A DNA stretch of 39,092 bases. Origin: Sulfurospirillum sp. (lineage in GTDB: Bacteria > Campylobacterota > Campylobacteria > Campylobacterales > Sulfurospirillaceae). The notes under the pieces were generated by a model. It worked only from the letters and a program-made list of their open reading frames with translations, was not told the DNA's origin and did no database searches. A program made the position numbers and the translations under genes. Where the stretch lies: contig JAGOZL010000007.1 of the NCBI GenBank assembly GCA_018058685.1, forward strand, positions 1 to 39,092, written 5' to 3'. Positions 28,178 through 31,907 of this stretch are shown one piece after another. The stretch's first letter is position 1. Every line of letters begins with the position of its first letter.

Positions 28178-29218
28178 ATGAAATTGGCCATAGTATTCGG
28201 TGCGAGAAGTTTTGAACATGAAATTAGCATTGTAAGTGCTATTGCGTTAAAAAAAGTCTTAACGTGTGAATTAATTTATATTTTTTGTGACCATGAACGC
28301 AACTTTTATCTTATCCCGACAGATGAGATTAACTCAAAACGTTTTAGCAGTGGTGCATATAAAAAAGATAAACTTTTGTCCCTAAAGCACGGCGGTTTTT
28401 ATTATAAAAAACTTATGAGTGAAGTGAAAGTAGAATCTGATATGGTTTTAAATCTTATCCACGGTGCAGATGGTGAAGATGGGAAAATCAGTGCTTTATT
28501 TGATTTTTTTGCTATTCCTTATATTGGTCCTCGTTTAGAAGCGAGTTGTATTAGTTATAACAAACTTTTCACTAAATTATTTGCTAAAGAAGTTGGTGTT
28601 GATGTTTTGAAATATCAACTGCTTTTAAAAGAGAATCCTGAACCAATCACCATTCCTTTTCCTCTGATTATAAAGCCTTTACGACTTGGAAGTTCTATTG
28701 GTATCAGTATTGTTAAAGAAGCGAGTGAACTCTCCTATGCACTCGATGTAGCATTTGAATTTGACAATGCTGTGCTTGTTGAGCCTTTCATAAACGGTAT
28801 CAAAGAGTATAATTTAGCAGGAGCATTGAGTAAAACAGGATTTAATTTTTCGATTATAGAAGAGCCTCAAAAAGAAGAGTTTTTAGATTTTGATAAAAAA
28901 TATCTTGATTTTTCACGTACAAAACGTGTCAATGAAGCCAATCTATCTTTAGAAACACAAGAAGCAATTAAAACAGCCTTTGCGAAGCTTTATAGCCCAC
29001 TGTTTCAAGGGGCACTTATACGCTGTGATTTTTTTGTTCTTGATAATCACGTCTATCTCAATGAAATCAATCCCATCCCTGGAAGTATGGCAAATTACCT
29101 ATTTGATGACTTTGAAGCTGTTATTAAAGCACTCTTTGAAGTTTTGCCATCAGAGGTTGCCATGCCGCCACAAACGTATCGTTACATCAACTCTATACAG
29201 TCTGCAAAAGGGAAGTAA
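28178..29218 (+). CDS. ddl: D-alanine--D-alanine ligase
   Basis: 346 residues, ATP-grasp enzyme. EHEISIVSAIAL at the N-terminus, LIHGADGEDGKI, the ATP-binding IKPLRLGSSIGISIVK and the C-terminal metal-binding LNEINPIPGSM are all present. It makes the D-Ala-D-Ala dipeptide that MurF, encoded three genes later, adds to the peptidoglycan precursor. Start ATG 28178, about 20 bases after ruvA. Confidence 0.96.
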   Translation: MKLAIVFGARSFEHEISIVSAIALKKVLTCELIYIFCDHERNFYLIPTDEINSKRFSSGAYKKDKLLSLKHGGFYYKKLMSEVKVESDMVLNLIHGADGEDGKISALFDFFAIPYIGPRLEASCISYNKLFTKLFAKEVGVDVLKYQLLLKENPEPITIPFPLIIKPLRLGSSIGISIVKEASELSYALDVAFEFDNAVLVEPFINGIKEYNLAGALSKTGFNFSIIEEPQKEEFLDFDKKYLDFSRTKRVNEANLSLETQEAIKTAFAKLYSPLFQGALIRCDFFVLDNHVYLNEINPIPGSMANYLFDDFEAVIKALFEVLPSEVAMPPQTYRYINSIQSAKGK

Positions 29219-29224
29219 AAGAGA

Positions 29225-29250
29225 AATTTATGTAAAATTTTACATAAATT
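29225..29250. promoter_or_regulatory. 26-bp perfect palindrome, candidate operator of the Phd-like gene
   Basis: Half-site AATTTATGTAAAA (29225-29237) is followed immediately by its exact reverse complement (29238-29250). It lies between the ddl stop (29218) and the Phd-like start (29271). Phd/YefM antitoxins bind palindromes just upstream of their own genes, so an autoregulatory operator is likely. The 14-base palindrome AAAAAGGCCTTTTT (29254-29267) follows and overlaps the ribosome site. Confidence 0.65.
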
Positions 29251-29270
29251 CATAAAAAGGCCTTTTTGTG

Positions 29271-29492
29271 ATGACGTACAATACAGATGAAATTATGACA
29301 GCCACAGATATGGTAAGAAACTTTAGTGCCGTCTTGAATAGTGTCAGTAAAGAAAAAAAGAGAGTGGTTGTTGTCAAAAATAACCGTTTTGAAGCAGTGA
29401 TGATCCCCATGGAAGCGTATGAAAAAATGAGCGAAGCCGTGACGATTTTGGAAAAAATATACGCAAGTACAAAAAAGAAGAGTGATGGCTAA
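29271..29492 (+). CDS. Phd/YefM-family antitoxin-like protein, no adjacent toxin
   Basis: 73 residues from ATG 29271 (a GTG lies just before). The N-terminal DNA-binding fold of Phd/YefM is seen in MTATDMVRNFSAVLNSVSKEKKR-like order: a short beta strand, the ATDMVRNFS helix, VVVVKNNRFEAVMIP strands and YEKM. The protein ends soon after, so the toxin-binding tail is short. The next gene is an alpha/beta hydrolase that overlaps it by 8 bases, not a RelE or Doc toxin. It may be a DNA-binding regulator retained without a toxin. Confidence 0.82.
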   Translation: MTYNTDEIMTATDMVRNFSAVLNSVSKEKKRVVVVKNNRFEAVMIPMEAYEKMSEAVTILEKIYASTKKKSDG

Positions 29493-30204
29493 AAAAGAGA
29501 TTGTTTATCAAGGTGCTTCCTATGCACTGAGTTATGAAATGCTCAATCTCTCTTCTTCTAAAACCATTCTTTTTTTACATGGATGGGGAAGCAATAAAGA
29601 GATTATGAAGCAAGCTTTTGGTGCTTGTTTTAAAGGGTATCGTCATCTTTATCTTGATTTACCAGGCTTTGGTGCATCTTCAGTGCATAGCGTTATTGAT
29701 ACGTTAGCGTACGCCCAAATCGTTTCACATTTTTTACGTGTTCTTGAAATAGAGCCTGATATTATATTCGGTCACTCTTTTGGAGGAAAAGTAGCAACAT
29801 TGCTTCAACCCAAACAACTTGTTTTACTCTCATCTGCTGGGATTGTTGCCCCAAAATCTTTCAAAGTCAAAGCAAAAATAGCACTGTTTAAACTGCTAAA
29901 ACCCTTTGCTCCTAAAAAATTTTATAGATTTTTTGCAACAAAAGATGTTGAAGGTATGAGCCAAACGATGTATGAAATCTTAAAAAAAGTGGTCAATGAA
30001 GATTGGTCTGAGTATTTTTTGACATGTCAATCCCAAACATTCATCTTTTGGGGAAAAGAAGACAATGCTACGCCATTTCAGAGCGGTAAAAAGATGCATC
30101 AGCTTATAAAAAATAGTACTTTTGTTCCACTCGATGGAGACCATTTCTTTTTTGTACGTCGTGCCAAAGAAATCGAAAAATTGCTTTTGGAGTCAGGGTT
30201 TTGA
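29485..30204 (+). CDS. Alpha/beta hydrolase
   Basis: 239 residues from ATG 29485. The oxyanion loop is LHGWGSNKE (about 32-40) and the nucleophile elbow GHSFGGK (about 98-104, catalytic serine). The acid is probably in WGKEDNATP and the histidine in LDGDHFFF near the end, a complete triad. Substrate unknown; it could be an esterase or thioesterase. It overlaps the Phd-like gene by 8 bases and the next gene by 4, in an operon of peptidoglycan genes. Confidence 0.88.
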   Translation: MAKKEIVYQGASYALSYEMLNLSSSKTILFLHGWGSNKEIMKQAFGACFKGYRHLYLDLPGFGASSVHSVIDTLAYAQIVSHFLRVLEIEPDIIFGHSFGGKVATLLQPKQLVLLSSAGIVAPKSFKVKAKIALFKLLKPFAPKKFYRFFATKDVEGMSQTMYEILKKVVNEDWSEYFLTCQSQTFIFWGKEDNATPFQSGKKMHQLIKNSTFVPLDGDHFFFVRRAKEIEKLLLESGF

Positions 30205-30470
30205 AAACGTATCGGTTAATTGTGAGTGGACGTGTACAAGGTGTCAATTATCGTAAATTTGTGCACGAAGTTGCTCTTGCGCTTCAATATAAAGGATGTG
30301 TAAGAAATCTTATGGATAAAACGGTGGAAGTCATTGTGAATGCGGAGTTTGAAGAGGATTTAGAGTTTTTTATCAGCAAGCTTTATGAGGGTTCATTGTT
30401 CTCAGATGTTCGCGATATTCAGTGTGTTCGCATCGATACGATGCTGTTTGAAACATTTAAGGTTGTGTAG
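30201..30470 (+). CDS. acyP: Acylphosphatase
   Basis: 89 residues, the usual length. GRVQGVNYRKFV (about 11-22) is the phosphate-binding loop with the catalytic arginine; typical members read GVGFR, so NY replaces GF here. The conserved asparagine is in CVRNLMDKTVEV. It hydrolyses acyl phosphates such as 1,3-bisphosphoglycerate or acetyl phosphate. Start TTG 30201 overlaps the hydrolase stop (TTGA). The stop TAG abuts the murF ATG. Confidence 0.92.
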   Translation: MKTYRLIVSGRVQGVNYRKFVHEVALALQYKGCVRNLMDKTVEVIVNAEFEEDLEFFISKLYEGSLFSDVRDIQCVRIDTMLFETFKVV

Positions 30471-31907
30471 ATGATGCTTATTGTTGAACATGTAATGCAT
30501 CTTCTATTTGTATTAAGTATAAGTTACTATTTTATGAGTGCAATGCAGTGGTATTCTTATCGCTTAGAGCGTGTTGCTTTTCATTTTCACCGTTACGATT
30601 GGCATTGTTATTTTTTTCTAATACCTTTATCTTTATATTACATTTTGCCTTCGTTGTTTGTTTATGGACTTTACCTTTTGTATCCGATTGCTCTTTTTGT
30701 ATGGTCACGTAAATTGGATAAAAAACTTGTTTTCACCGCACGTGTAAAACGATTTTTTCTATTTCTCTTTTTTGTGATTATCTTTCAATCCATCCTTTGT
30801 TTATATGCTCAAATTTGCTCAAAACTAGGTGTTATTCTTCCTCTTTTGATAGCCCATTTTGCCTCTGTGATTTTTGAAAAAATGGCTTTTGAAGGCTTTA
30901 AAAAAGAAGCACGCACTAAACTTCAAAGTATTCCACAGCTTAAAGTGGTTGCTATTACGGCAAGTTATGGTAAGACCAGTATCAAAAATTTTTTAGCACA
31001 CATCTTATCTTCCTCTTTTGACGTCTATGCTACACCACGCAGTGTTAACACGCTTGGAGGCATTGTTAAAGATATTAATGAGTCTCTTCCTACCCGTGCG
31101 CAGATTTATATTGTAGAAGCAGGAGCACGAGAACGTGGTGATATCGATGAAATAGCACAGCTAGTCAATCCTCATATTGCTATTGTTGGTCGTATTGGGG
31201 AACAACACATTGAGTATTTTAAAACATTGGAAAATATTCGCAATACCAAAATGGAACTTTTACACTCCTCTCGTTTAGAAAAAGCGTTTGTCCATGAAAG
31301 TGCTCATGTTAAGTCCGATGATAAAACAGTTATTTTTGGCTCTGATATACGAAATATCAATGCAACGCTTGATGGAACATCGTTTGAACTGCTTCTTGAT
31401 GGAGAATGGATTGGCTTTACATGTAAACTTCTAGGTGATTTTAATGCGATTAATCTTGCAGCAGCCATTCATGTTGCAAAATCACTTGGTGTTAAAATTG
31501 AGACGATTCAAGCGTCTCTTTTGGGACTTAAAAGTGTGGAGCATCGGTTACAAAAAATTGAAGCAGGTGGGAAGCTCATCATCGATGATAGTTTTAATGG
31601 CAATTTAGAAGGAATGCTAAGTTCATACGAACTCATCGCAACGTATGTCGGACGTAAAGTGATTATCACCCCAGGCATCATTGAAAGCACAGAAGAGGCA
31701 AATAGAACATTGGCTCAAAAGATAGATAGCGTTTTTGATGTGGTTATTTTAACAGGAAAAAGCAATGTAGCCCTGTTAGACTCACACATACAACGACCTG
31801 AAAAAATCATTTTAGCCGATAAGTCAGAATTACAATCTCTTTTAGCTCAAAAAACAATTCCAGGCGATGTGATACTTTTCTCCAACGACGCACCAAGTTT
31901 TATTTAA
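30471..31907 (+). CDS. murF: MurF ligase with N-terminal membrane domain
   Basis: 478 residues. Residues 1-140 hold about four hydrophobic helices (about 8-27, 46-79, 95-115, 119-136) in place of the usual soluble UDP-binding domain. From 158 on it is a Mur ligase: P-loop TASYGKTS (163-170), VEAGARERGDI, GEQHIEYF, LGDFNAINLAAAI and DDSFNGN. MurF adds D-Ala-D-Ala to UDP-MurNAc-tripeptide. The membrane anchor would place this last cytoplasmic step next to MraY and MurJ. I recall the Campylobacter homologue having a similar form. Ends the plus-strand operon. Confidence 0.9.
   Translation: MMLIVEHVMHLLFVLSISYYFMSAMQWYSYRLERVAFHFHRYDWHCYFFLIPLSLYYILPSLFVYGLYLLYPIALFVWSRKLDKKLVFTARVKRFFLFLFFVIIFQSILCLYAQICSKLGVILPLLIAHFASVIFEKMAFEGFKKEARTKLQSIPQLKVVAITASYGKTSIKNFLAHILSSSFDVYATPRSVNTLGGIVKDINESLPTRAQIYIVEAGARERGDIDEIAQLVNPHIAIVGRIGEQHIEYFKTLENIRNTKMELLHSSRLEKAFVHESAHVKSDDKTVIFGSDIRNINATLDGTSFELLLDGEWIGFTCKLLGDFNAINLAAAIHVAKSLGVKIETIQASLLGLKSVEHRLQKIEAGGKLIIDDSFNGNLEGMLSSYELIATYVGRKVIITPGIIESTEEANRTLAQKIDSVFDVVILTGKSNVALLDSHIQRPEKIILADKSELQSLLAQKTIPGDVILFSNDAPSFI
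31417..31426. repeat. TTACATGTAA palindrome in murF
   Basis: Exact copy, read FTCK. Confidence 0.9.

Follow-up and report, generated by a model that had tools for sequence, protein, structure and literature searches.

A solo Phd/YefM-type protein in the ddl-murF operon of Sulfurospirillum and a putative link to a terminus-proximal cluster of operator-like sites

Introduction

Antitoxins of the PF02604 family are best described from the YefM-YoeB and Axe-Txe systems, where the operator lies over the promoter and has a pair of TGTACA cores whose centres are 12 bp apart (PMC7730913, PMC4803016). A short palindromic motif of another kind, matS, is repeated across one terminus-proximal domain of the chromosome in enterobacteria, with 23 copies in 800 kb, and is the site on which MatP acts. 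Caulobacter crescentus has a protein that couples the terminus to the divisome, ZapT. Outside the enterics, a protein other than MatP thus links the terminus (PMC7188993).

Here we analyse a stretch of 39,092 nt from Sulfurospirillum sp. (GenBank assembly GCA_018058685.1, contig JAGOZL010000007.1, forward strand), referred to throughout as the window. It carries a gene for a Phd/YefM-type protein whose predicted operator resembles that of YefM-YoeB in its spacing, and sites of the same type are found clustered in the terminus-proximal part of Sulfurospirillum chromosomes.

Results

The Phd-like gene and the palindrome ahead of it

The Phd-like gene (29271..29492, forward strand) encodes a protein of 73 residues that matches PF02604 with an E-value of 3.5e-9 (36.8 bits, cut-off 29.8) and TIGR01552 with 29.6 bits (cut-off 20.8). 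The frame is also open from GTG 29268; ATG 29271 is the best start, because the aligned methionine is conserved and the GTG is not. The C-terminal helix is conserved in an alignment of homologues. A model of the protein, with a pLDDT of 85.6, has the Phd/YefM fold and its top Foldseek matches are Phd and YefM entries, with a probability of 1.00 and E-values of only 0.009-0.1; YefM-YoeB bound to 26-bp DNA is among the matches. A search of PDB sequences with the family profile gave nothing significant, the top YefM entry having an E-value of 0.075. By both domain and fold, the protein belongs with PF02604 and not with the MatP family.

The gene is part of an operon with all members on the same strand. 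The first gene upstream is ddl, encoding D-alanine--D-alanine ligase (28178..29218), and downstream lie genes for a lipase of the EstV family, an alpha/beta hydrolase whose gene overlaps the end of the Phd-like gene (29485..30204; NF058580), an acylphosphatase (30201..30470) and a Mur ligase in the murF position (30471..31907). No toxin gene was found within the ddl-murF stretch, and the gene at the 3' side of phd, where a cognate toxin might be looked for, is that of the EstV-family hydrolase.

Between ddl and phd, AATTTATGTAAAATTTTACATAAATT forms a perfect 26-bp palindrome (29225-29250) of two 13-nt arms without a loop. It is the longest palindrome in the window, the runner-up having arms of 10 nt; in 60 windows simulated by a Markov-1 model with matching dinucleotide content, arms never exceeded 10 nt. 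When its 22-bp core was searched for with up to three mismatches, 29225-29250 was the sole match in the source genome. With the start at ATG 29271, the distance from the palindrome to the gene is therefore 20 nt. The locus is in these respects as an earlier sequence-only reading of the window had portrayed it: a perfect 26-bp palindrome, ending 20 nt ahead of a Phd/YefM-type gene that sits inside a ddl-murF operon and has no toxin partner beside it. The ribosome-binding site AAAAAGG (29254..29260, forward strand) makes up most of another inverted repeat, an imperfect one, at 29250-29271; conservation of this repeat was looked for in relatives and none was seen, and it was dropped as incidental to the ribosome-binding site.

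Conservation of the gene and its context

Some match to the Phd-like protein was found in 67 of the 100 genomes searched, the distant matches being other Phd families. An orthologue between ddl and estV is present in 47 relatives as well as in the window's own genome, a count that takes only loci with both neighbours found. The same ddl-phd-estV order, again without a toxin, occurs in most of 76 named Sulfurospirillum and Campylobacter loci, a set that overlaps in part with the 100 genomes; the named genomes with the gene belong to these two genera and include C. concisus, C. coli and C. jejuni. Judged by gene order, this position is shared by Sulfurospirillum, by further genera of the same family and by Campylobacter, and the gene is not a stray module.

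EstV occurs in 98 of the 100 genomes examined across the order, also in families that lack phd, and in several genomes that have no phd the ddl gene abuts estV with 0-2 nt between them. The Phd gene therefore gives the appearance of an addition to a pre-existing ddl-estV operon, and on the same observations EstV was rejected as a toxin partner. In one genome of family f22 (L216) an ORF on the opposite strand separates ddl from estV, and no Phd homologue was detected in this 380-nt gap.

From its domain and the C. jejuni gene order, Cj0797c is most likely the C. jejuni counterpart of the Phd-like gene. Cj0797c, described as a hypothetical protein with a Phd/YefM domain, is reported from transposon sequencing to be essential in both C. 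jejuni and C. coli (PMC10077673).

The predicted operator

Comparison of the ddl-phd gaps showed that the dyad is not the conserved feature, since some relatives carry the half-sites in the same orientation. Conserved instead is a hexamer, TRYRYA (mostly TACATA or TATGTA), in two or three copies exactly 12 bp apart. A pair at exactly this distance occurs in 57 of 74 unique ddl-phd intergenic regions, compared with a mean of 0.36 and a maximum of 2 in simulation, and 15 of the 74 have three boxes in a row. The candidate consensus is TAYRTA-AAATTT-TAYRTA. In the window the 26-bp palindrome includes both boxes, located through the alignment of operators: box 1, TATGTA, at 29229..29234 (forward strand), which the matrix score also supports, and box 2, TACATA, in the opposite orientation at 29241..29246 (read on the forward strand), with the spacer AAATTT (29235..29240) setting the 12-bp centre-to-centre distance known from YefM-YoeB. 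The operator 18-mer has a matrix score of 24.9, the second-best match in the window scoring 10.0. The locus therefore shares with the YefM subgroup the core hexamers 12 bp apart, and the core itself is not TGTACA.

As the box spacing is that published for YefM, the protein likely regulates its own gene together with those downstream, and the earlier suggestion that the protein regulates the hydrolase, acyP and murF gains in likelihood from the spacing of the predicted operator. An extended -10 element, TGNTANAAT, starts 8 nt ahead of box 1 in six relatives. A consensus scan found no sigma-70 promoter in the window; we infer an internal promoter of the operon from the relatives, and autorepression there would seem likely from the geometry. 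The predicted operator and autoregulation are well supported by the comparison of genomes. In genera g2 and g5 and in part of g4, the gene is kept, there is no ddl-phd gap, no boxes are present there and the cluster is missing, with sites mostly numbering 0-2; the protein in these genera must therefore also act otherwise or read another sequence. What the sequence-only reading had missed is that, across relatives, the conserved unit is the boxes at 12-bp spacing and not the palindrome, and that similar sites cluster close to the terminus.

Dispersed sites and their clustering

A strict two-box pattern, TRYRYAWAATTWTRYRYA, was counted with the reversed pattern as control. It occurs 3-10 times per Sulfurospirillum genome (7 in the window's own), with 0-2 for the control in the genus; in families that do not have the gene its count is mostly 0-1. 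Nine complete Sulfurospirillum genomes have 64 sites between them. Of these, 60 fall between 0.38 and 0.66 of the chromosome length, and 53 of 57 when the seven phd operators are left out, so that the motif, as is the case for matS, occupies one terminus-proximal domain, which in G015 is off-centre. The circular p-values per genome range from 0.006 to <1e-5, and they are not independent, given that the nine genomes are related by descent and have syntenic sites in common. Position 1 was confirmed as dnaA-dnaN in G008 and G013 by reading the first 3 kb, and was taken from record convention in the other seven.

All eight strict sites of G008 lie within 1215001-1507601 of its 2606563 positions, a region that takes in both the switch in GC skew (~1.40 Mb) and, at 1459330, a difH-like sequence found by comparison with the dif sequence from PMC3325230. 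The GC content of this region is not lower than elsewhere. In G015 the cluster (1.04-1.36 Mb) is displaced to one side of the point where the skew changes sign, and a search of 1.0-1.4 Mb of that genome for a dif-like sequence gave none. With a matrix trained on the phd operators of other genomes only, 400 kb of the G008 terminus was compared with 400 kb of control: at 16 bits or more there were 12 sites in the terminus and 1 in the control (p 0.002), at 14 bits or more 14 and 3 (p 0.006), and at 12 bits or more the contrast was weak, with 16 and 9 (p 0.11).

Of the 14 distinct sites in G008, 10 fall within ORFs, as do 5 of 9 in G015; as most of the dispersed sites examined are within genes, they would not be operators. 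Sites between genes are enriched in G008 (4/14 vs 7% non-coding sequence). A dense terminus cluster was not found in C. jejuni or C. coli, which have the operator and only one or two further sites, and the reported essentiality of Cj0797c therefore cannot be credited to a terminus role. Outside the genus, the strict pattern occurs 7 times in G053, from family f11, which has the gene, and five of the seven are on the contig that carries it (binomial p 0.003). One site in this genome (G053:C3:133458; L104 2047-2076) has three boxes in a row and lies just past a thiE-like gene and before a convergent one.

Constraint at individual sites

For a site within proS, the sample of genomes was picked by neighbourhood and not by the motif. 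Of 20 genomes, 18 share the codons TGT GTA AAA TTT TAC ATA without any change, and in windows of seven codons the synonymous conservation is 0.97 compared with a mean of 0.71 for the gene, among the highest of 539 windows. The S. cavolei lineage (L342, L360; G001, G021) has lost the site, along with changes in the amino acids. For the sites in a bioV-like and a GGDEF-type gene the identity of 100% is biased, because the sample was chosen by the motif. The bioV-like ORF has a third box, which was unused for selection, and here a switch between TGTGTA and TACATA goes with an amino-acid change and keeps the hexamer class.

A further box pair, 170-225 nt upstream of a gene for a 93-residue protein, is kept in 24 of 24 genomes of the genus tested and also in G026; it is absent in G027 and G039. 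The 93-residue protein is DUF2018-like and its gene is followed by those for an exported protein and a polyprenyl synthase (site G000:C103:26480-26497; L105, L107, L111). It is possible that this gene is a second target.

The iterated palindrome

The window also contains 19 copies of TTACATGTAA, a highly iterated palindrome with 840 copies in the source genome. Copy numbers range from 49 to 1496 within the genus and from 6 to 733 among the remaining members of family f1, and are 0-6 in the other families of the order; no paper was found in the literature that names TTACATGTAA together with Sulfurospirillum. Like the palindrome ahead of phd it is AT-rich and belongs to the same genomes, but it differs from the operator in its hundreds of copies, its lack of a TRYRYA box and its phylogenetic range. 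The sequence-only reading had thought it conceivable that the Phd-like protein cross-recognises this word, and that idea is not supported: all 19 copies in the window score below zero with the operator matrix, and the word is abundant only in family f1, being absent or rare in families that also have the gene and operator.

Discussion

The best reading of the locus, which on sequence comparison we hold with slightly better than even confidence, is that a domesticated Phd/YefM protein represses its own promoter and binds terminus-proximal sites in the manner of MatP. A solo DNA-binding protein of this family would have become fixed in the chromosome of Sulfurospirillum, its family and Campylobacter, and would recognise TRYRYA hexamers 12 bp apart centre to centre. 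The two or three boxes between ddl and phd would be the operator for self-repression, through which the protein probably also tunes estV, acyP and murF. In Sulfurospirillum the same type of site, numbering 3-10 by the strict pattern or about 14 by the matrix in one genome, lies in a single domain of ~0.3-0.5 Mb opposite oriC that includes the phd-like gene, and the protein probably marks or compacts this domain, as MatP does on matS. We infer the binding of the protein to its sites, the repression and the role of the dispersed sites alike; clustered and largely intragenic sites are best accounted for by a MatP-like role of the protein in the terminus-proximal domain of Sulfurospirillum, which we put at roughly an even chance.

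The protein could instead be a purely local autoregulator, acting on its own promoter and on estV-acyP-murF only, with the dispersed sites unrelated to it. The geometry of the operator and its conservation directly ahead of the gene would be expected of such a protein, as would the extended -10 element eight nucleotides before box 1 in six relatives, and C. jejuni and C. coli have essentially the operator only. A matrix built from operators alone nevertheless predicts the terminus cluster in another genome, and there is constraint at the DNA level on the sites within proS and ahead of the DUF2018-like gene, so that we regard this explanation as unlikely. A protein repressing a number of promoters that lie by coincidence in one part of the chromosome would fit with the box pair retained upstream of the 93-residue gene throughout the genus genomes tested and in G026, and with the intergenic enrichment in G008, but the sites inside ORFs in both G008 and G015 and the frozen codons in the middle of proS make such a regional regulon rather improbable.

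That the protein is still an antitoxin, with its partner encoded elsewhere in the genome, seems less probable again. It is a PF02604 member, the C-terminal helix, with which proteins of the Phd/YefM type hold their toxins, is conserved in it, and essentiality of Cj0797c is reported for both Campylobacter species, C. jejuni and C. coli (PMC10077673). However, no adjacent toxin is present wherever the neighbours could be read, its fixed inheritance in a cell-wall operon is unlike that of a mobile toxin-antitoxin module, and the essentiality may come from polarity on murF or from the small size of the gene. Lastly, the dispersed sites might be bound by a different protein with similar recognition, be it a Phd-type antitoxin paralogue or a terminus factor unrelated to it. 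Many of these genomes do have more distant Phd homologues, and genera with the orthologue but without the sites indicate that the two can uncouple; yet the phd-like gene is within the site cluster and has a high-scoring site ahead of it, and in G053, from another family, the sites concentrate on the gene's own contig, which makes this a very remote prospect.

A MatP-like role for the domesticated protein would provide a candidate, together with a testable list of sites in a genus that is not pathogenic, for terminus handling in bacteria that have no MatP. The locus also brings into view an orphan antitoxin that is conserved and has Cj0797c, reported as essential but hypothetical, as its apparent orthologue in C. 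jejuni, and it suggests how the operator code of a toxin-antitoxin system may have come to extend over a domain of the chromosome.

Compared with the known systems, the locus is like YefM-YoeB and Axe-Txe in the PF02604 domain, the predicted fold, the operator placed ahead of the gene and the two hexamer cores 12 bp apart. It differs from them in that there is no toxin gene alongside, the core is TAYRTA and not TGTACA, the gene is fixed in a cell-wall operon, and dispersed sites are clustered in one chromosomal domain. To ZapT the proposed likeness is one of role, as a terminus-linking protein other than MatP. From MatP/matS of enterobacteria the system is set apart by its protein family and fold, and binding, compaction and a link to the divisome are putative here; the matS-like cluster is a property of Sulfurospirillum and not of C. 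jejuni or C. coli. It is conceivable, at somewhat below an even chance, that an antitoxin was domesticated into an organiser of the terminus domain and, with its ~7-16 dispersed two-box sites, forms a MatP/matS-like system that arose independently of MatP. The likeness lies in a short palindromic motif repeated across a single terminus-proximal domain and in a candidate protein whose gene is inside that domain, with a site density of about 14 in 330 kb in G008 against the 23 matS in 800 kb.
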